Virus record (IMG/VR): IMGVR_UViG_3300022839_000061
Location: 1-30,926 of that record
DNA length: 30,926 nucleotides
Strand: one strand, 5' to 3'
From: a virus
The notes beneath the pieces were generated by a model. The model did not search any database, had not been told where the DNA came from, and was given only the letters and a program-made list of their open reading frames with translations. Shown one piece after another: positions 1 to 17,537 of the stretch. Both the position numbers and the translations under genes were made by a program. Numbering within the stretch: position 1 is the stretch's first letter; the number at the start of each line of letters is the position of its first letter.

Positions 1-382
1 TTATTATTTTTCAATTATAAGTAGAACATGTTATTATCCTGAACATTATATAGGATATTTATTTAATCCAATTTCTTATGCTAGTGAAGATGAGTTTGTT
101 CAGTGGAATTTTATTCACGATGAACATTGTAGAAAAGCTTTAAAAAAGAGTAATTTAGATAAGTGGATAACAACAAGTCAGATACTCAACATTTCTTTAA
201 AAGAATGGGAGACTTTGACTTGTATAATTCAAGATGGTTTTTATCTAGAAGTAAATGATATACTCCAACAAAGAAGTAAGTCTATAAAAGAACAGGAAGA
301 TAAGTTAAGTAAAAACTTGACATCTTCTGTTAAATTACCTCATCAAGTAACAAGTAACTTATCCAGGATTATGAGCAAGTAA
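1..382 (+). CDS. C-terminal part of an unknown phage protein (5' end outside window)
   Basis: An open frame runs from the left edge (codons start at position 2) to TAA at 380-382 and gives about 126 residues. It includes an aromatic, charged middle (SYASEDEFVQWNFIHDE) and a helical, lysine-rich end that finishes NLSRIMSK. I do not recognise the family. The stop overlaps the portal ATG by one base (TAATG), so the two genes are probably translationally coupled and belong to one operon. The position just before a portal gene often holds terminase or other packaging and assembly genes, but nothing in these residues shows terminase motifs. Function is left open. The frame is confident because it is open throughout and fits the portal start exactly. 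Confidence 0.75.
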   Translation, partial: YYFSIISRTCYYPEHYIGYLFNPISYASEDEFVQWNFIHDEHCRKALKKSNLDKWITTSQILNISLKEWETLTCIIQDGFYLEVNDILQQRSKSIKEQEDKLSKNLTSSVKLPHQVTSNLSRIMSK

Positions 383-1872
383 TGTTAGCTGATATTTCAT
401 TTACTAGAAGACAACTTAAAACTAAAAGAAATTTAGCTCAACAGGGCGGTCAAACATTTCATGGAATGCACCGCCCTCTCTTGCAAAATTTACTTGAATA
501 CGAAACAGTAACAAGATATGATACGCAAGTTAGATATTGTTTACGTATTTTATTAAACGCAATTATTGGCTCGTTGTCTGAGATAGAACATCCAGACAAA
601 GAAATACAGTCATTTTTAAGAGCAAATATTCAATACATGCTAAATGAGCATGGAGTAGATTACAAACAGCGTTTAAAGACTATGATTAAAACGTCTTTAT
701 GGGCTGGTTTCAGTATTACTGAAAACTTGTATGAACTTTATGAAGGAAATGTTATCCTTCAAGATTTAATTACATATCATCCTGCAACTATTCAAATCAG
801 AACAAATAGACAAGGACGTTTAACAGAAAACGAACCATCTTGGGAAGGTTTTGAAAGTGGAGTTTACCAGAACGATATTTATGGAAATTCGAAGACTGGA
901 GAAACACAACTTAGTTTATGGAAAATAGCTATTTTAACTAATGATTCTGACTTTAATAATTATTATGGTCAATCAGCAATAGAAGGTGTGTATCGCTGGT
1001 ATTTGTTGAAAGAAGCTTTGTTAGCAATGATGACAGAAGCTTTAGATAAATTTGGTAATCCTTTACTTGCAATTACTCTTCCATCATCAGCAGCTACTCA
1101 TGCAGAATACGACGAAGAATCTGGAGAAGAAGTTACACTTTCAGATCAACAATTATTAGAACAACAATTAAACAATAATATATCAACAGGCGAAGGTAAT
1201 GTTTTAATACTACCTCAACACAACAAAGATATGAAACCAGAAGTAAAAGTAATTACTACTGGAAACAATCATGGTGATATGTATTCTGGTGCAATTGATA
1301 TGTGTGACCAAAATATTGCTAAAGGTTTATTAGTTCCGTTTGGACTAAGCAATAGTGGTCCTAATAGTGATGGTAAAGCATTAGAAAAACATATTGAAGT
1401 ATTCAATAAAATTGTTTCTTCTTTTGTTAGTCAGTTTGTTCAACCTGCTGTTAATCAGACTTTCTTTAATGTAATTAAATATAATTTTGCAAGAGAATCT
1501 GCTAAAATTGCTCCTACCTTACCTTATAATAATGCAACGTCAAGAGCAGAAGATAAAGTTGCTTTAATGCAAATGATAAAAGGATTAACCCAAGACGGTT
1601 ATTTAATACCCACTAATGCTAGTGATTGGGAAATGGTAAGAGAAATGGTTAGTACCAACTTTAGACAACAGTCAAATGAAGATTTAGAATATATTAAACA
1701 ATTAATTATATATCCTCGTAATCCTAACTTAGCTGAATTTAACAAAGAAGACGATAATAGTAAGTCCATTGGTGTTGTAGATCCTTCAAGAGATCGTTCA
1801 ATGGAAGGAAAAGTAAAAGGGAAAGGTCAGCGTGGACGACCCGCTGGTATTTCAACTCCTCAAATTACTTAA
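382..1872 (+). CDS. Portal protein (DUF935/Mu gp29-like)
   Basis: The 496-residue protein has the layout of a phage portal, the dodecameric ring at the capsid vertex through which DNA is packaged and to which the tail attaches. The N-terminal third is helical and rich in charged residues. A central segment (WRWY-type helix, residues about 205-235) is followed by an acidic loop. Residues about 305-345 contain NIAKGLLVPFGLSNSG and a downstream helix (KALEKHIEVFNKIV) like the clip/stem region of DUF935-type portals, where bound chains are described as 'q.sk..lG..Lt...'. The C-terminus is basic (GKVKGKGQRGRP), which suits DNA contact. Length is typical. Its ATG overlaps the preceding stop. A protease/scaffold gene and capsid gene follow, as expected for a head module. 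The exact portal family is inferred. Confidence 0.85.
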   Translation: MLADISFTRRQLKTKRNLAQQGGQTFHGMHRPLLQNLLEYETVTRYDTQVRYCLRILLNAIIGSLSEIEHPDKEIQSFLRANIQYMLNEHGVDYKQRLKTMIKTSLWAGFSITENLYELYEGNVILQDLITYHPATIQIRTNRQGRLTENEPSWEGFESGVYQNDIYGNSKTGETQLSLWKIAILTNDSDFNNYYGQSAIEGVYRWYLLKEALLAMMTEALDKFGNPLLAITLPSSAATHAEYDEESGEEVTLSDQQLLEQQLNNNISTGEGNVLILPQHNKDMKPEVKVITTGNNHGDMYSGAIDMCDQNIAKGLLVPFGLSNSGPNSDGKALEKHIEVFNKIVSSFVSQFVQPAVNQTFFNVIKYNFARESAKIAPTLPYNNATSRAEDKVALMQMIKGLTQDGYLIPTNASDWEMVREMVSTNFRQQSNEDLEYIKQLIIYPRNPNLAEFNKEDDNSKSIGVVDPSRDRSMEGKVKGKGQRGRPAGISTPQIT

Positions 1873-2413
1873 AAAGTTTTTTATTGTTTTGTACACATTC
1901 TAGAAGTAATAGATGACAACAAGGTTTTCTACTTTTAATAAATTCTTGACATGAACAATCTCTACTAGAAAAACTATAAACTGTTCCTAGAGGTCCTATT
2001 AAATTCACATTATCTGATACTATAACTTTCCAACCATTTAAAAGCATATCAGCAGCAATATAATTACTTTTTGTTTCCTCATCTTTTTTTACAATTAATT
2101 TAGTAATGGAAGAATTGGATAAAGTTATAGATAAATTAATTTCATTTTTTGTTTCTTTTTCAATAAAGCAAGAATACATTTTTTCATCCATTAACAAAAG
2201 AATAGATTTAATAGTTGCAAAATAATTTTCATTTATTTCTATGTTTAATAAATACATAGCTTGAGATATTATTTTTTTATCAATAACTAGAGGTTGCACT
2301 TTATATTCTAAATTATTTAATTTAAAAGTATTTTCAGGCAAAATCTCAACATTATTTATAATTTTTTTTAAGAATTCGTATTTTGCCAGTGTGTATGCTA
2401 GAGAAATGGTCAT
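1865..2413 (-). CDS. SWIM zinc-finger protein, antisense to the head operon
   Basis: This 182-residue minus-strand gene lies between portal and protease genes, both on the + strand. Its C-terminus carries a SWIM zinc-finger signature CxC...CxH: C153, C155, C165 and H167 in the segment SRDCSCQEFIKSRKPCCH. SWIM domains bind zinc and are found in DNA-binding or protein-binding factors, including SWI2/SNF2 ATPases, transposases and MEKK-type proteins. No catalytic domain is attached here. The first 145 residues are a helix/strand mix with lysine-rich stretches that I do not recognise. The last 8 bases overlap the end of the portal gene in a convergent tail-to-tail arrangement, with no clear terminator. 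Its orientation and lack of a structural motif suggest a regulatory or anti-host cargo gene rather than a virion part. The reading of the zinc motif is firm; the role is inference. Confidence 0.8.
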   Translation of the reverse strand: MTISLAYTLAKYEFLKKIINNVEILPENTFKLNNLEYKVQPLVIDKKIISQAMYLLNIEINENYFATIKSILLLMDEKMYSCFIEKETKNEINLSITLSNSSITKLIVKKDEETKSNYIAADMLLNGWKVIVSDNVNLIGPLGTVYSFSSRDCSCQEFIKSRKPCCHLLLLECVQNNKKLFK

Positions 2414-2493
2414 CTTAAATTAAATAGATGTGTATGGTGTATTTTGATATTCTTGGAATTAATAACATTAAAGGCTACTAATCTTTTAACCAA
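2414..2493. promoter_or_regulatory. Divergent intergenic region between SWIM gene and protease gene
   Basis: These 80 bases separate two divergent start codons, so promoters for both strands are expected here or upstream. On the + strand, TAACAT at 2463-2468 ends 26 bases before the protease ATG and matches the -10 consensus at 4 of 6 positions. On the minus strand, CAAAAT (complement of 2441-2446) ends 28 bases before the SWIM start and also matches at 4 of 6. Neither has a convincing -35 box, and neither gene has a Shine-Dalgarno sequence. This is a position-based suggestion only. Confidence 0.25.
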
Positions 2494-4107
2494 ATGGATG
2501 TTGATAAAGAAATGTTGCGAGAGTTTATTCTTGCAGAACAAAATAATAGTACAATTGAACCTATTGAATTAACACCATGTGAACAAGATGTTGAATTAAC
2601 ACCCTGTAAACAAGATGTTGATTTAAAAATAGCCGCGTCAGAAAATATTAAATTATCAGATGATACTAGTTCTTTAAAAATTCTAGATGTTTTTACAATC
2701 AAAGAATTAGAAGGAATGAGTTTTTCCGACTTACACATGTTTATTGTACAAAAGCAAGATGCATTAAGTAGTTGGAAGCTAGATGATTTAATTTATTCTA
2801 AATCTTTTGAGTTTCTTGATTCAAAAGAATATTTGATGTTTATTTGCTATTTAGAAGAATTATCTAATATTTCCTATGTTTACATTTCAGCAAAACGAAT
2901 GCTGGAAGTAAGCGTTCATAATGACGCTATAAAAACATGCTCATATTTGGATAATTTATATTGTTGCAAAGAAGAAAGTAATGTTTTAAATAAAGATATT
3001 TCTAACGAAGACACTACTAAAGTAGAAAAGTTTTCACAAGAAATTGAAATATCTAGTAATATTTTAAATAAAGATAGTGATGATATTTCTAACGAAGATA
3101 CTTCTAAAGTAGAAAAGTTTTCACAAGAAATTGAACCTGAAATATCTAGTAATATTAATACAATTTTAGTAAGTAACGATAAAAAACATATTAGATTGGG
3201 TATTGCCAGAATTGGCAGTTGGAAACATCCTTTATATAAGCATGTTACATTTACTCAAAAAGATTTTGATGATATAATTACTAATTTTAATTCTAATGAA
3301 TTAGGCTTTGAACCACCTTTGTTTTTAGGACATACTAAAGACGGAATGGTTAAGAGTGGTAATAATCAATATGAAACTGTTGCTGGAGAACCTGCTGAAG
3401 GTTTTTTATCTTCTATTGAACAAGAAGGTGACGCATTATACTCAACATGGGAAATAGTTAATTCTTCATGTTACGATGCTGTTAGTAATGGTCGATATAG
3501 ATATAATTCTGGAGAATTTCTCCGGAACTATATATCCAAAAGAAGTGGCAAGTCAGTTGGTACTGTATTAATGGCAATGGCTTTAACTAATAAACCATTT
3601 GTTCCAAATTTACCACGAGTTTTAGCATTGTCTGAGAATCAGACGGATGCTGATTTATTTACATTTACACAATATCAAGAAGAAATTATGTCTGATTCCC
3701 AAGAACAAAAGCTTACAGAAGACAATAAAAGTCTTCAACTAAAACTTAGTGAAACTGAAACTCGTTTAGTTGCAGTAGAAGATTCATATAAGGAACAACT
3801 AACAGAACAGCAAACACTTATCGTTGCTTTATCTGAAAAGTTGCGTCATATTGAACTAGAAAAGAAAGTAGCCAGAATCGAAAAGCTTGCTTTGCCTCGT
3901 GAAGTAAAAGATAAGCATATACAAATGCTTTCTAATAATTCCAATCTTGGCGAAACTATTGAAGAAGATATTCTTTCTTCATTAGAAATGGTTGCTAATG
4001 CTAAAGCTCAATTGTTTACTCAACAAGGTTTAACTTCAGATACAACTCGCGTTACTGATGCTAATCCTTATGCTGCTATTATTGAACGTAACAAAGTTAT
4101 TAAATAA
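2494..4107 (+). CDS. Prohead protease (Mu gpI-like) with long N-terminal extension and scaffold-like C-terminus
   Basis: The 537-residue protein has three parts. Residues 1 to about 230 form an acidic, repeat-bearing extension. Residues about 232-380 resemble the Mu I-type capsid maturation protease: GSWKHPLYKHVTFTQKDFDD, then LFLGHTKDG with H280, A/G-EPAEGFL, YRYNSGEFL with S339, and the typical ending ALTNKPFVPNLPRV. H280 and S339 are the candidate catalytic residues of this assemblin-like fold, by family analogy. Residues about 395-480 are a heptad-like coiled coil (LQLKLSETETRLVAVEDS) as in scaffolding domains. In Mu, protease I and scaffold Z share one frame through an internal start; M399 (ATG at 3688) could be the equivalent. 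The capsid gene starts 2 bases after the stop. No SD precedes the chosen ATG. The upstream extension is unusual for the family. Confidence 0.82.
   Translation: MDVDKEMLREFILAEQNNSTIEPIELTPCEQDVELTPCKQDVDLKIAASENIKLSDDTSSLKILDVFTIKELEGMSFSDLHMFIVQKQDALSSWKLDDLIYSKSFEFLDSKEYLMFICYLEELSNISYVYISAKRMLEVSVHNDAIKTCSYLDNLYCCKEESNVLNKDISNEDTTKVEKFSQEIEISSNILNKDSDDISNEDTSKVEKFSQEIEPEISSNINTILVSNDKKHIRLGIARIGSWKHPLYKHVTFTQKDFDDIITNFNSNELGFEPPLFLGHTKDGMVKSGNNQYETVAGEPAEGFLSSIEQEGDALYSTWEIVNSSCYDAVSNGRYRYNSGEFLRNYISKRSGKSVGTVLMAMALTNKPFVPNLPRVLALSENQTDADLFTFTQYQEEIMSDSQEQKLTEDNKSLQLKLSETETRLVAVEDSYKEQLTEQQTLIVALSEKLRHIELEKKVARIEKLALPREVKDKHIQMLSNNSNLGETIEEDILSSLEMVANAKAQLFTQQGLTSDTTRVTDANPYAAIIERNKVIK
2566..2619 (+). 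repeat. 27-bp tandem repeat inside the protease gene (two copies)
   Basis: Two adjacent 27-base units, 2566-2592 and 2593-2619, differ at only two positions and encode ELTPCEQDV and ELTPCKQDV. They lie in the N-terminal extension, outside the protease domain. The near identity at DNA level points to a recent in-frame duplication. Confidence 0.9.
2977..3147 (+). repeat. Tandem duplication (78 and 93 bp units) inside the protease gene
   Basis: Unit one (2977-3054) and unit two (3055-3147) both begin AGTAAT and encode a shared block around DISNEDTTKVEKFSQEIE. Unit two carries 15 extra bases in frame: a DSD-type insertion near its start and a PE insertion near its end. A third partial AGTAAT begins at 3148. 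The duplication sits just before the protease domain in the acidic linker. Confidence 0.9.
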
Positions 4108-4109
4108 AA

Positions 4110-5402
4110 ATGTACGAACCTAATTCTTCTCCTTATCAATATATTGGCGACGTTCCTGCTTTGGGATCGTTGGCTCTTACAAAACTTGCTAAAAGTTTTG
4201 AAGAAACTTCTTCAGAATCTCTCGCTTTCCTTTTCCCAACTGAAGTAATCCCAGAGCGAAATATTATTGTTCGTACAGTTAAGCAAGGATTGGGTTTAAT
4301 GCCAATCGTTATGCCTGGTGTACCAACAGATGGTTATGTAGAAAACGATCGTATTGAAACACGTTATTTTTCTCCTATATATGTTCGTGATAATTACTAT
4401 ATTGATCAACATTTGTTGAATCAACTTCGCCGACCTGAATCAGAAAACGCATCATGGTCTCCTACTGAATTTCTAGCTAAAATTGTACAAAAAATGGTTA
4501 ATCGCCATAATCGTACAGTTGAATTTTTTAGGGTTAAAGCTCTTCTAGGTGGTATTAATCATACTGATCCACGTAGTAACTTGTCTATCAATGTTTCAAC
4601 ACAAGTTCCTGCTCATAACATGTTCCGCTATGATGGCTGGAATGCAACATTGAATGCTGCTGCTTCTGCTGGACATGGTTATACTGCTGATAAAGCTTTG
4701 ACTAATAACAAAGGTCGTACAGAAGCAATGTACTTCTCTTCGTTAGATAATAAAGTTGGAGTTCCTTGGACTTCTCCTAATGCAGACATTGTTCGTACAC
4801 TTCGTTTGATTAAGCAATATCTTGCTTCTACAAACAAGAACGTGTTTACTGACATTATTATGTCTCGTGATTTGTATACTATTCTTCAAGAGAATGCAAG
4901 TATTAAATCAGCAGCAGGTCAAGTTGCAGTACTAAACGGTGCTTCTGCTCCTATTTCATTAGGTTCTAGTGTTGGTAATCCTTTCATCTCTTATAGTGTT
5001 TCTGGAGACATTACTTCGATTGCTGGGCTTAACATCATCTTGGTGGATTCTTTATATAGTGACCCAAGTGCTGACCGCGATGCAAAATCTGCTGTTAAGC
5101 AAATGTGGTCTCCTAATAAAGTTGCATTAGTTGCTCGAACTCATTCTTCTGACCGTTCAGCCACTTTAGGTTATACACAATTCTGCATGGGAGAATCACC
5201 AGATTCTACTCCAGGTATGTGGACTCGTACAGAAGCCAATGTTTTAATCCCAGGAGCTCCTGGAATGGCTATGCAAATGGGGAACGCTTTCCTACCTTAC
5301 GTTATGTATCCTCATTGGATTGCTATTCTTGAAGTTTGCGAAGAAGCTGACGTTGAAGCTAAGTTGTTCATGTCCGCTGATATTGGTTTTGGAACATTCT
5401 AA
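4110..5402 (+). CDS. Major capsid protein (HK97-fold, probably gpE type)
   Basis: The 430-residue product is the likely capsid building block. It follows the protease/scaffold gene directly and is of the usual length. Features recalling the lambda gpE/Phage_cap_E class are an N-terminal region with LFPTEVIPERNIIVRTV, an aromatic block RYFSPIYVRDNYYI at about residues 85-100, the helix MVNRHNRTVEFFRVKALLGG at about 128-147, and a C-terminal LGYTQFCMGESPD segment before the closing β-rich end. Codon use differs sharply from neighbours: nearly all arginines are CGT/CGC/CGA and almost none AGA, as expected for the most abundant virion protein. The start has only an A/T-rich leader and no SD. TATTAT at 4077-4082, inside the previous gene, ends 28 bases upstream and might be a -10 element, but this could be chance. 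Confidence 0.85.
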   Translation: MYEPNSSPYQYIGDVPALGSLALTKLAKSFEETSSESLAFLFPTEVIPERNIIVRTVKQGLGLMPIVMPGVPTDGYVENDRIETRYFSPIYVRDNYYIDQHLLNQLRRPESENASWSPTEFLAKIVQKMVNRHNRTVEFFRVKALLGGINHTDPRSNLSINVSTQVPAHNMFRYDGWNATLNAAASAGHGYTADKALTNNKGRTEAMYFSSLDNKVGVPWTSPNADIVRTLRLIKQYLASTNKNVFTDIIMSRDLYTILQENASIKSAAGQVAVLNGASAPISLGSSVGNPFISYSVSGDITSIAGLNIILVDSLYSDPSADRDAKSAVKQMWSPNKVALVARTHSSDRSATLGYTQFCMGESPDSTPGMWTRTEANVLIPGAPGMAMQMGNAFLPYVMYPHWIAILEVCEEADVEAKLFMSADIGFGTF

Positions 5403-14665: not shown

Positions 14666-14962
14666 ATGAAAGTTGCAAGTAATAAATCTTCTCATGTTTA
14701 CTTAATTCACGCTTTTGGTACTGACATGTTTAAGATTGGTATTGCAACTGATTCATTTAAAAGAATCAAAACACTACAAACTGGAAGTCCTGTCGAACTT
14801 CAACTAATAAGAAATGTTAAATGTAAATATCCAAGTATGTTAGAAAATGAATTACATACTGGTATATTTAATAAATACCATTCTCATGGAGAGTGGTTTA
14901 AAATACCTAAAGAAGAATGTGTAGCTTTATTTGATAAACATACCATTCCTTATCAACTATAG
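14666..14962 (+). CDS. GIY-YIG nuclease-like protein, T5orf172/MUG113 type
   Basis: The 98-residue protein is a compact single domain of the T5orf172 branch of the GIY-YIG superfamily. Motifs in order are VYL (11-13, GIY equivalent), FKIGIA (22-27, YIG equivalent), R33 in the first helix (FKRIKTLQTGSP, the family catalytic arginine), E60 and H64 in LENELH, and GEWFKI (75-80). The GIY-YIG fold cleaves DNA with one metal ion, and phage members are often homing or self-standing nucleases. The branch is less studied and some members may only bind DNA. It is a single-domain protein without an obvious DNA-binding extension. It has its own extended -10 promoter and its own terminator, so it is a monocistronic accessory gene inside the virion region rather than a tail component. 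Confidence 0.85.
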   Translation: MKVASNKSSHVYLIHAFGTDMFKIGIATDSFKRIKTLQTGSPVELQLIRNVKCKYPSMLENELHTGIFNKYHSHGEWFKIPKEECVALFDKHTIPYQL

Positions 14963-14968
14963 AAAAAG

Positions 14969-14988
14969 AACCCCAATTTGGGGTTTTT
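14969..14988 (+). terminator. Intrinsic terminator of the GIY-YIG gene
   Basis: AACCCC (14969-14974) pairs with GGGGTT (14980-14985) around AATTT, followed by a T-run (14984-14988). It starts 6 bases after the stop codon. Confidence 0.9.
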
Positions 14989-14994
14989 AATAGC

Positions 14995-15020
14995 AATTTT
15001 ATCTTGGATAGGATAAAATT
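14995..15020 (+). promoter_or_regulatory. Inverted repeat, probable operator overlapping the RHH gene promoter
   Basis: AATTTTATC (14995-15003) and GATAAAATT (15012-15020) are perfect 9-bp inverted arms with an 8-base spacer. TAAAAT (15014-15019) within the right arm ends 26 bases before the ATG at 15045 and can serve as the -10. A repressor bound here would block RNA polymerase. The next gene encodes a ribbon-helix-helix protein, a class that often binds short inverted repeats in its own promoter, so autoregulation is a natural guess. Confidence 0.55.
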
Positions 15021-15044
15021 AAGATACATTCTTTCTTAGTTTAC

Positions 15045-15974
15045 ATGAACATTTCAATTTCTTCGAGAGTTACACCTGAAATCAAAGCTTCTCTTAAAAC
15101 TTATTCTGATATTAATTCAATATCAATGAGTGAAGTAATTAGACGTGCTTTAGAAAGCTATCTAGAACAGCCTACAACAGTAGTTAATAATACTATTGAA
15201 GAATTCACGCCATCTTTAATAACAACAGTCTACGAACCACCTGATCCAGAATTAGAAGATAATATTACTACAATCGATATTGGTTTTACAGGTTCAGAAT
15301 TAACTGTTCAACCAAAGTATAAATCTGAATTTGACATGTTGATGGGAGTTAGCGAAATTGCTAAACGAAATAATTTAAATCACTGGGAGGAAGAAGAATT
15401 AATATGGGCTAATAGAGAATATTTTGAATATGACAAACCTTTAAATCGTGAGTCTTTTAATAGTGATAAATTATTTGAAAATGCTATATTTCTACAAACA
15501 GCGGAAGTACCAGAATTAACTGAAGAATATTTAGCATCATTTGAAAAAAGATATTCTGAGGAAGAAATAAATGATAAAGATTTAGAAGAAATAGAACAAC
15601 GTATTGCTGAAATTCAAGAAACATTATCTTGTTCTAACGAAGGAATGGTTGGGGTATATTACATTAATGAATCTATTAAAGAAGATTTAACTCAAATAGA
15701 AATAGAAGAAATTGATGGTTTAATACTGACTGGAGTATTAAATGCTTATAGAATAATGCATTTTGAATATTTGAATAGTGAATATGATATTATACAATAT
15801 TGTGTTTTAAGAGAATTTAAAAACAACCCAGAACTTATCGAATTTGTATCTGAAAAATTAACTTATTATGATGATGGCATAACTACATTGTTTGACAATC
15901 ATCAAAGAATGGAATACAAAGAATTAGGAAAAAAAATGGATACAAATAATAGTTGGAGCCGAATTCTTAAATAA
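15045..15974 (+). CDS. Ribbon-helix-helix (CopG/Arc-type) protein with long acidic C-terminal region
   Basis: Residues 1-42 (MNISISSRVTPEIKASLKTY, then NSISMSEVIRRALESYLEQ) match the ribbon-helix-helix fold: a short β-strand (2-8), helix A (about 10-21) and helix B (27-41) after an S-x-S-E turn. RHH dimers insert the β-ribbon into the DNA major groove. Residues about 50-309 form a strongly acidic region that I do not recognise, with coiled-coil-like EEEINDKDLEEIEQRIAEI near residues 180-200 and a helical end. RHH proteins are usually 45-150 residues, so 309 is unusual. An inverted repeat just upstream may be its operator. The gene has its own terminator. Possible roles are regulator, antitoxin-like partner or acidic inhibitor of a host protein; none is proven. 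Confidence 0.75.
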   Translation: MNISISSRVTPEIKASLKTYSDINSISMSEVIRRALESYLEQPTTVVNNTIEEFTPSLITTVYEPPDPELEDNITTIDIGFTGSELTVQPKYKSEFDMLMGVSEIAKRNNLNHWEEEELIWANREYFEYDKPLNRESFNSDKLFENAIFLQTAEVPELTEEYLASFEKRYSEEEINDKDLEEIEQRIAEIQETLSCSNEGMVGVYYINESIKEDLTQIEIEEIDGLILTGVLNAYRIMHFEYLNSEYDIIQYCVLREFKNNPELIEFVSEKLTYYDDGITTLFDNHQRMEYKELGKKMDTNNSWSRILK

Positions 15975-15989
15975 GTATTTATCGTATTT

Positions 15990-16017
15990 AAAAACCTTTG
16001 GAAGTAAAGGTTTTTTT
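15990..16017 (+). terminator. Intrinsic terminator of the RHH gene
   Basis: AAAAACCTTT (15990-15999) pairs with AAAGGTTTTT (16006-16015) around GGAAGT, followed by a T-run to 16017. A clear rho-independent terminator. Confidence 0.92.
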
Positions 16018-16018
16018 A

Positions 16019-16047
16019 TTGCTAATTTTTTTAATTTAATGTAAAAT
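16019..16047 (+). promoter_or_regulatory. Sigma70-like promoter for the PD-(D/E)XK gene
   Basis: TTGCTA (16019-16024) and TAAAAT (16042-16047) are separated by 17 bases. They match the -35 and -10 consensus at 4/6 and 5/6 positions. The element begins just after the previous terminator and ends 26 bases before the ATG at 16073, predicting a leader of about 19 bases. Confidence 0.6.
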
Positions 16048-16072
16048 AATAATATACCTGATAAAAAAAAGC

Positions 16073-16708
16073 ATGATGAATCCACCCAAAGTGAGAACTG
16101 ACAGACCTATTTTAAATAGTGAAAGAGATTATCAAGAACAAATTATGTTACTTGGTTCTTATTATAAAACAAGGAAACTTTCTCAAGAAATTCCTGTTTT
16201 TATAACACCTAAAGAACAAAGATATATAGATTTTGCATTTATTTATCCTTCAGCTATTCATGCTTTTGAATTGAAAAAAAGAGAAATTAATTTTAAAGAC
16301 GTTAGCGAAAAATTAAAAAATAAAGGATATTGTGAAGCGTTGAGAAATACTTATCCTAAGCGTAAGATAACTTTAACATTTATATCTCCGCGAGATTTTA
16401 CTGTGGATGCAAGAACATTAATTGAAATAAATAATAATGAATTTAATGTTGATGTAAAACATGAAACTTTTTCAACATTTATTTTTAACTTGGTAAAATT
16501 AATGATTTCTGATTCGCCAGAACACACTAAATGGCATTATATAAAAGAATTGAAATTTATTTTTAAAAGGTTTGAAAAAAACCATATTATTCGAACTGTA
16601 AATTATCTTTTACGGGTTTTATCAGAAGTAAGATATAATGCATTATTTCCGCTATACGATAATTTGTATTTTGAAATAAGAAATGAATTATTAGAATTAA
16701 TTAACTAG
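16073..16708 (+). CDS. PD-(D/E)XK nuclease-like protein
   Basis: The 211-residue protein carries a plausible PD-(D/E)XK nuclease core: E17/E22 in the first helix (SERDYQEQIMLLGSYYK), D53 at the start of a strand (YIDFAFI), and E66-L-K68 in the next strand (AIHAFELKKREINF), followed by a helix with K and Y residues (EKLKNKGYCEALRNTY) and a further strand (KITLTFISPRDF). This D-x12-E-x-K spacing is typical of metal-dependent DNA nucleases of the restriction-enzyme fold. The C-terminal part (from about residue 115) is helical and unknown; it may be a recognition or dimerisation part. Two ATGs (16073 and 16076) are possible starts. There is no SD. It has its own promoter and terminator, so it is an independent accessory gene. 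Target and biological role are unknown. Confidence 0.6.
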   Translation: MMNPPKVRTDRPILNSERDYQEQIMLLGSYYKTRKLSQEIPVFITPKEQRYIDFAFIYPSAIHAFELKKREINFKDVSEKLKNKGYCEALRNTYPKRKITLTFISPRDFTVDARTLIEINNNEFNVDVKHETFSTFIFNLVKLMISDSPEHTKWHYIKELKFIFKRFEKNHIIRTVNYLLRVLSEVRYNALFPLYDNLYFEIRNELLELIN

Positions 16709-16742
16709 AAAAAAAAACCCTCAACGTTGAGGGTTTTTTTTT
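16709..16742. terminator. Perfect palindromic bidirectional terminator
   Basis: Nine A, an 8-bp inverted repeat (CCCTCAAC then GTTGAGGG, 16718-16733) and nine T form a perfect 34-base palindrome. It begins directly after the stop of the nuclease-like gene and can terminate transcription from both directions. It also faces the minus-strand gene ending at 16950. Confidence 0.93.
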
Positions 16743-16949
16743 ACAAATATATGTTTTTGCAATTTTAACAGATTGTTCAAGATATTCTGTTTTTGGAGTT
16801 ATTTATTGTAATTACTTAAGGCTTTCAACTTCCTTACGTAAGAACAAATATTATTTAGTAACTTAAGTTTATCTGAAAACTAGTCTAAAATAGCAGGGGC
16901 GGTAGAAGTGTTGATAATACAAGTAAAATAGAAGCAATAATTTTCAAAT
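16743..16949. other. Gene-free spacer between convergent genes
   Basis: No convincing ORF occurs in these 207 bases. They would form the 3' untranslated region of the minus-strand gene before the palindromic terminator. Two short palindromes are visible, CTTACGTAAG (16833-16842) and AACTTAAGTT (16860-16869), along with a small GC-rich patch (GCAGGGGCGGTAG, 16893-16905) that stands out from the AT-rich surroundings. No tRNA cloverleaf could be fitted by eye. A small RNA cannot be excluded. Confidence 0.4.
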
Positions 16950-17537
16950 TTAATTAACAATAAATTGTTTATATTTCTCGTTCATAATTAACCTACTAGT
17001 TTCACAATTAATTTGGTATTGGATTTCTTTTAAAAAAGCAGAATAAAAGAAAAGAGTGTCTTGTTGTTTGTAGTTTCCAACAATATTAATTATTTTATTT
17101 ACATTCGTTTCTTTTAGTTTTAACCAATCTAAATAAGAAATATTCATTTTTAATTTAGAAAATTCGAATACTAAATCAATTTCCTGATCTATGTAGTTTT
17201 TAGAAGATTTTAAAAGTTGTTCATCTGTCATTGGTGTGTATTCTGTTTTTTCTTTTGTTTGTGAGTTTTCTTCATAAATAAAACCAATTGAACAATTAAC
17301 ATTTTTTAAAATATATTTTGTAATATGTTCAGAAGGTTTAATTACTTCTCCTGTAAAAAATATACATTCAATACTATCAATACCTTCTTCTGTGATAAAC
17401 AATTCGTTAAAATTAGTTCTAATTGTTTCTATAGAATTAGCTCTATTTTTTAATCTTGCAAATCTTTTAGATAAAGATATATCCCAATTGTTTACATTAA
17501 TTTTTAATTTCCAATTAGAACGGTTAATTTTATACAT
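16950..17537 (-). CDS. Unknown 195-aa protein on the minus strand
   Basis: The product has a β-rich N-terminal half (NWKLKINVNNWDISLSKRF, then GIDSIECIFFTGEVIKPSEHI and NCSIGFIYEE) and a helical C-terminal half from about residue 105 (TDEQLLKSSKNYIDQEIDLVFEF, then DWLKLKETNVNKIINIVGNYK and FYSAFLKEIQYQINCE). I do not recognise a family. It converges on the nuclease-like gene and shares the palindromic terminator. TATATT (complement of 17565-17570) ends 28 bases before its ATG and could be its -10. Opposite orientation to every virion gene marks it as accessory. Virion-chaperone or regulatory roles are both possible. Confidence 0.65.
   Translation of the reverse strand: MYKINRSNWKLKINVNNWDISLSKRFARLKNRANSIETIRTNFNELFITEEGIDSIECIFFTGEVIKPSEHITKYILKNVNCSIGFIYEENSQTKEKTEYTPMTDEQLLKSSKNYIDQEIDLVFEFSKLKMNISYLDWLKLKETNVNKIINIVGNYKQQDTLFFYSAFLKEIQYQINCETSRLIMNEKYKQFIVN

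Follow-up and report, generated by a model that had tools for sequence, protein, structure and literature searches.

A SWIM zinc-finger gene in antisense orientation recurs between the portal and capsid genes of phages related to Ma-LMM01

Results

Gene layout and the SWIM domain

The window, by which we mean the whole 30,926-nucleotide stretch of IMG/VR record IMGVR_UViG_3300022839_000061 analysed here, carries a minus-strand gene within its plus-strand head module (Table 1). The gene layout and the SWIM call at this gene were confirmed to the exact base. The SWIM gene is convergent with the portal gene, with which it shares bases 1865-1872, and divergent from the protease gene. The first-pass annotation had reported the antisense gene with its 8-base portal overlap. 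Read in the same register, the plus strand of the SWIM gene holds many stops, and its G+C content is 23%, versus 30-39% in the head genes.

The encoded protein matches the Pfam SWIM family over residues 148-170 (E 4.3e-5; score 23.4 bits, cut-off 19.6), with predicted zinc ligands in C153-S-C155 and C165-C-H167 separated by a spacer of 9 (CSC-x9-CCH), so that the CxC-CxH zinc finger claimed initially is upheld. No second Pfam family was found at E<=1, in agreement, as far as Pfam sees, with the earlier statement that helicase, transposase and ligase domains are absent. The four ligands are kept in relatives that are only 14-23% identical and the dN/dS of the gene is below 1 (see below), which places the motif beyond chance. 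Taken alone, the window protein is an unremarkable SWIM-domain protein.

Table 1. Positions of the genes and sequence elements discussed in the window and in related genomes (L numbers denote contigs of relatives).
Feature	Genome	Position	Strand	Details
SWIM zinc-finger gene	window	1865-2413	minus	ATG start; 182 codons, 182 aa
Portal protein gene, Mu type	window	382-1872	plus	Pfam Portal_Mu E 5.3e-27; phrog_113 1.2e-21
Mu-I-like prohead protease/scaffold gene	window	2494-4107	plus	Pfam Mu-like_Pro 1.4e-6; phrog_32941 5e-32; phrog_976 5.6e-10
Major capsid protein gene	window	4110-5402	plus	phrog_30785 1.8e-44; query for relatives
Divergent intergenic gap	window	2414-2493	none	SWIM start to protease start
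Weak terminator-like hairpin	window	1824-1842	minus	6 pairs; ~23 bases past SWIM stop, within portal gene
MUG113/T5orf172-type ORF	window	14666-14962		tail-module patch
ORF	window	15045-15974		tail-module patch
Weakly phrog_37791-like ORF	window	16073-16708		tail-module patch; E 0.0016
ORF	window	16950-17537	minus	tail-module patch
gp084, SWIM family member	Ma-LMM01 (NC_008562)	70568-70990	minus	gene after portal; annotated 'hypothetical'
gp080	Ma-LMM01 (NC_008562)	57700-68388		~3,560 codons
Giant gene just upstream of head genes	L002	13379-17386	plus in the locus, opposite to head genes	>1,300 codons (cut off)
Antisense ORF at SWIM place	L029	7773-8330	minus	185 aa; no CxC..CxH; 15-base overlap with portal end
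dUTPase cargo	L016, L018			
Ferritin/Dps-like cargo	L028	7707-8282	minus	Pfam Ferritin
Ferritin/Dps-like cargo	L037	8023-8532	minus	Pfam Ferritin
Ferritin/Dps-like cargo	L058	6661-7296	minus	Pfam Ferritin
Ferritin/Dps-like cargo	L061	7741-8220	minus	Pfam Ferritin
HNH cargo	L028			
DHH phosphoesterase cargo	L034			
Winged-helix-like cargo	L015			
phrog_37791 cargo	L061	6813-7748		E 1.4e-28
Long palindrome, divergent gap	L061	8220-8263		22-base perfect arms
Long palindrome, divergent gap	L037	8537-8573		
Long palindrome, divergent gap	L044	8585-8625		

In the structural model of the window protein, residues 121-170 are predicted with confidence (pLDDT block means 91-94) and the N-terminal half is poor. 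The model of the L061 member (pLDDT 88.2) runs in the order helix, three strands, helix, three strands, zinc loop and long helix. Neither model matched a solved structure at E<=0.001, and the best VIA-align hits (Z 4.2, polo-box chains) were read as background, which is no proof of a new fold. In a viral fold library, the sole match at E<=0.001 was the MaMV-DC member of the same family (BFVD A0A075BUV8, E 2e-11, L061 query). Coenzyme A-disulfide reductase, the lone profile match among PDB sequences (E 0.61), was taken as chance.

Relatives and named members in cultured phages

The SWIM protein of the window is a poor probe for its own relatives: tblastn against the phage collection returned nothing at E<=10, and the first viral scans with it matched only a near-identical contig, L002 (IMGVR_UViG_3300023242_001450), which extends further upstream. 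Relatives were gathered instead through capsid and portal profiles, after which the portal-capsid gap was inspected, giving 57 viral contigs including this near-copy. The window capsid is nearest to those of Ma-LMM01 and MaMV, which are Microcystis phages, and of the Microcoleus phage My-WqHQDG (29-31% identity); the portal is 23-24% identical to theirs, and weaker portal matches (E 7e-8 or worse) are mostly to Bacillus phages. Contig L076 (LUGL01000101.1, 68 kb), from the assembly of the cyanobacterium Elainella saxicola E1, has a capsid gene with 68% likeness to the L061 capsid and, as either a prophage or a co-sequenced phage, points to the host group. It was the one contig given by a scan of genome contigs, and it ends 1.7 kb before the capsid, short of the SWIM place. 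Taken on these sequence affinities, a cyanobacterial host is likely for the window phage.

Two other members were also used as queries. With the L061 member, tblastn found nine named-phage records, all of the same lineage and at E <1e-9; with the L028 member, nine of 11 named-phage records came from that lineage, again at E <1e-9, and the remaining matches, to My-WqHQDG (E 1) and phage csAssE-Sib (E 0.7), were at noise level. The family member in Ma-LMM01 is gp084, which overlaps the portal gene by 8 bases exactly as in the window. Four MaMV records have the same layout as Ma-LMM01, the MaMV-DC member being ORF85L ('hypothetical protein'), and the SWIM gene of My-WqHQDG lies one plus gene further from the portal. 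These members read CSC..CKH or CTC..CKH. Family, place, strand and portal overlap are thus common to the window gene, gp084, ORF85L and phrog_32834, although gp084 and the window protein are only ~28% identical, and gp084 has a shorter N-terminus and a spacer of 5 instead of 9. The phrog_32834 profile matches the window protein at 3.1e-4, the Microcoleus phage at 6.8e-4 and Ma-LMM01 at 8.4e-98, and gp084 is evidently a founding member; used as a genome query, the same profile matched nothing, controls included, and was uninformative. The Ma-LMM01 and MaMV members score 17.9-18.1 and that of My-WqHQDG 17.4, under the Pfam SWIM cut-off of 19.6, which may explain why gp084 and ORF85L carry no domain name.

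Conservation of place, strand and zinc ligands

A SWIM ORF was found between portal and capsid in 31 of the 41 contigs that hold both of these ORFs, a set that includes the window near-copy and in which near-identical contigs are tallied separately; it was absent from the other 10. All 31 run antisense to the head genes. The first-pass annotation had regarded a SWIM gene as odd for a head module; the survey instead makes it a regular feature of the lineage. In L014 and L042 the SWIM ORF was present and the portal ORF was missing from the examined stretch. For further comparison we used 19 representatives, namely the window and 18 of 33 SWIM ORFs from distinct contigs with near-copies omitted; L067 and L069-L075, as well as L001-L003 and L010, were left out of the counts as loci repeating a contig.

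The zinc ligands, whose conservation in homologues had been proposed as a check on the gene, are kept in all 19 representatives: each has CxC..CxH, and the spacer varies between 5 and 13. Because the recruiting profile itself contained the motif, and L018 was picked up on the motif only, a ligand-less member could escape this count. A Gly precedes the motif in 19 of 19 and is followed directly by Tyr in 18; in the window and L061 this invariant Gly stands 26-27 residues ahead of the motif. Pfam SWIM is matched at E<=0.1 by 13 of the 19. A family-profile search of 36 records, many of them fragments, gave a match in 19, one copy each and always between portal and capsid, which does not bear out the expectation of copies in phages outside the head operon; the 17 unmatched records comprise seven cut before the SWIM place, nine of SWIM-less lines and L035. 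Scans against NCBIfam and PADLOC gave single-member hits only.

On a capsid tree of 56 rows, 43 of them scored, SWIM presence requires two changes compared with 8.9 in shuffles (none of 500 as low), in a tree made by a quick method, without the partial capsids L065 and L066, and with near-copies that inflate the contrast. L029, scored as SWIM-absent, accounts for one of the two changes. It has an antisense ORF at the SWIM place (Table 1), whose likeness to the SWIM family core in hhalign is weak (E 0.043, probability 1.2%); this ORF may be a family member whose zinc site was lost. Across 20 pairs with identities of 45% or more, 14 being comparisons among close Ma-LMM01-like copies, dN/dS of the SWIM gene ranged from 0.06 to 0.55 and was below 1 throughout, as expected under purifying selection. 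Judged from these sequence comparisons, the SWIM gene is a regular feature and landmark of the lineage, apparently kept by descent.

Overlap with the portal gene is not conserved in the same way. It occurs in three of the 19 representatives (the window, L028 and L056), and overlap with any plus gene of at least 100 aa in seven. Antisense RNA to the portal end, raised in the first-pass annotation, finds no backing here as the function of the gene, because an overlap kept in just three of 19 is not the conserved feature.

An antisense cassette with changing cargo

In 11 of the 19 representatives (L015, L016, L018, L028, L034, L037, L043, L044, L058, L061 and L068), the SWIM gene is flanked by further minus-strand ORFs, chosen by mechanical ORF picking, whereas the window and Ma-LMM01 have no such cargo beside it. 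In six (L016, L018, L034, L043, L044 and L061) the SWIM gene overlaps its antisense neighbour by 1-13 bases. The cargo that could be named is listed in Table 1; phrog_3636 matched the ferritin/Dps-like protein in both of the two scanned. No convincing family was found for 10 of 20 cargo proteins, all 20 being compared with Pfam and 10 with PHROGs too.

Minus-strand ORFs of at least 100 aa occur between portal and capsid in all 19 SWIM representatives, and beyond the capsid in three of them (up to 8 kb scanned, 720 bases for L068). Among SWIM-less representatives, such an ORF lies between portal and capsid in one of six (L029); the L032/L033/L062 line is left out of this strand control since long shadow ORFs confuse the mechanical gene picking. 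The antisense strand is therefore a property of the portal-capsid gap, such ORFs being rare elsewhere in the module and in SWIM-less genomes, and the SWIM gene is the constant resident of the cassette, since it stays while its neighbours vary. The fixed combination of one SWIM gene, one strand and one place with changing company appears new.

A second foreign-looking patch was seen in the tail module of the window (14666-17537). One of its ORFs is weakly like phrog_37791, a family also found beside the SWIM gene in L061, so cargo may move.

Transcription signals

A scan of window positions 1700-2700 gave six sigma70-like sites against 6.9 in shuffles and none in the divergent gap, which is the expected site of the opposed promoters; in Ma-LMM01 such sites are likewise at chance level (1 versus 1.2). 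The late-promoter motif of PMC5780444 is present before the window protease and absent before the SWIM gene, but with 5 of 25 starts against 2.5 in shuffles it is too loose to weigh.

As for terminator-like hairpins, the same 1-kb stretch of the window has one against 0.2 in shuffles, and within 200 bases past the SWIM gene there are five minus-strand sites among the 19 representatives (window, L028, L034, L037 and L061) against ~0.9, in keeping with a SWIM unit of its own. On the plus strand, between the end of the portal gene and the plus gene that follows, 10 of the 19 have at least one such site (15 sites against ~6.9, some inside cargo genes), and the window and L056 have none. In L061, a 15-pair two-way hairpin sits exactly at the portal/SWIM junction and could stop transcription on both strands.

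The divergent gap itself holds long palindromes in L061, L037 and L044 (Table 1) and the element ATAAATGCCTACA in genomes of the L037/L043/L044 type, with one exact copy in each of five related genomes and 0-2 more with one mismatch. These palindromes and ATAAATGCCTACA look operator-like. No inverted repeat was found in six of the 10 divergent gaps tested, the window's included.

Discussion

The recurrence of the same gene, reversed in the same gap, in many distant viruses makes it probable that it performs a useful job, and this job is most likely DNA handling. Ma-LMM01 is the studied member of the lineage, and according to the main text of PMC5780444 its genes fall into three expression classes with sigma70-like promoters, the ordering of which was left open; it seems to rely throughout on host promoters of the sigma70 type. 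The early set reported there is gp054-gp063, the dUTPase gp181 is a middle gene, and gp086, gp087 and gp091 are among five late genes. That set leaves out gp084, which the main text does not mention, so the early expression anticipated in the first-pass annotation is not supported by this source, whose RNA library was not strand-specific; the interpretation in that annotation is, overall, partly supported.

Our preferred reading, which we hold with about even confidence, is that the gene encodes a non-virion SWIM protein of the replication phase, acting in DNA metabolism or regulation and forming the constant member of an antisense unit of its own inside the head genes across a broad group of cyanophage-like tailed phages. 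The cassette would be a separate transcription unit with its own promoter, expressed in the replication (middle) phase apart from the late head proteins, and its opposite orientation would leave it out of the head transcript. The CxC..CxH site would hold one zinc ion and, together with the preceding helix-beta core, would bind nucleic acid or a partner protein, in the service of phage DNA metabolism or its control; the protein would be absent from the particle. A separate replication-phase unit is suggested by cargo devoted to DNA and nucleotide work and by the middle timing of the Ma-LMM01 dUTPase, set against the late timing of gp086, gp087 and gp091 (PMC5780444). The cargo is only a guide to the role of the SWIM protein itself.

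Other roles can be imagined for such a gene. It is rather unlikely, though arguable, that the protein is a late-gene regulator, which would bind DNA or host RNA polymerase and switch the capsid-side unit on or off from the divergent gap. The SWIM gene is indeed divergent to the next plus gene where cargo does not intervene, and the long palindromes and ATAAATGCCTACA fall in that very gap. On the other hand, cargo separates the SWIM gene from the gap in seven of the 19 representatives (L028, L034, L037, L043, L044, L058 and L061), most gaps tested have no inverted repeat, and a single exact copy of ATAAATGCCTACA per genome does not make a genome-wide late promoter. In phage P2, the small zinc protein Ogr activates the late genes; it too is coded beside structural genes, but its zinc motif and its place are different. 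The open ordering of the three Ma-LMM01 classes would leave room for a regulator of this kind (PMC5780444). A separate, unlikely reading is a middle-to-late switch, formed by the zinc-finger gene together with the opposed strands and kept throughout the lineage: opposed middle-phase transcripts of the cassette would hold the head genes down, and the head transcript would later silence the cassette. Such a switch needs a head transcript that runs through the cassette, and the terminator-like hairpins of several relatives argue that it is not universal. If true, it would bear on how expression is ordered without a change of host promoter type, a question open in PMC5780444.

SWIM proteins without enzyme domains do exist, as exemplified by the eukaryotic RAD51 regulators Shu2/SWS1, which act with RAD51 paralogues (PMC6316741), and a phage counterpart might serve as a recombination mediator that helps a phage RecA/UvsX. 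We regard this as very unlikely: the alanine of the Shu2/SWS1 CxHxxA motif is missing in 18 of the 19 representatives, the window having Leu, and is found in one. RecA-family genes accompany the SWIM gene in six of eight SWIM-bearing records, compared with one of four SWIM-less ones, but these counts come from 12 records, largely fragments. RecA is common in large phages. Just as unlikely is a virion or head-assembly protein that happens to be coded on the other strand. Its location in the portal-capsid gap in every record with a SWIM gene would fit, yet genes for head proteins are as a rule transcribed together with those of their partners, and the antisense neighbours that can be named are DNA/nucleotide enzymes or Dps-like proteins, none of them structural. 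An accessory, moron-like gene directed against the host or its defences, outside the core cycle, is distinctly unlikely as well, even though its own strand, variable neighbours and lower G+C would suit one; a single fixed place across capsids only ~30% alike, with few changes of state, is unusual for accessory genes, and PADLOC matched single members only.

The replication-phase SWIM protein that we favour has partial parallels in known systems. It shares with Pfam PF04434 the CxC..CxH signature, and differs in being small, in lacking a second Pfam domain and in having a helix-beta lead-in of its own. A radiation-induced SWIM protein, likewise devoid of an enzyme domain, has been reported in Deinococcus (PMC5552922). 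The layout recalls noncontiguous operons, in which opposite-strand genes are nested among genes of one direction, phages included (PMC7154746, PMC11087260), as in the men operon of S. aureus and ith-1/tha-1 of prophage 80alpha. Overlapping transcripts were measured in those systems, whereas the SWIM cassette is known only from its gene layout, and hairpins in some SWIM relatives may cut the sense transcript. Among the papers listed for SWIM with phage terms, none concerned this gene by title, and neither SWIM nor gp084 occurs in passages of PMC9927357 (MaMV-DH01) or PMC13340012.

These results provide a likely domain name for a 'hypothetical' gene of cultured phages of a bloom-forming cyanobacterium (Ma-LMM01 and the MaMV phages), and illustrate that a reversed gene among head genes can be a stable landmark of a phage lineage. 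Because Microcystis NIES-298 serves as a culture host for Ma-LMM01 (PMC5780444), timing and function are directly testable.

Just upstream of the head genes, L002 carries a giant gene (Table 1) whose counterpart in Ma-LMM01 is gp080, part of which weakly resembles phospholipase D (PLDc, E 0.052); long opposite-strand ORFs occupy this place in many relatives, and in L030 and L031 they lie on the head strand.
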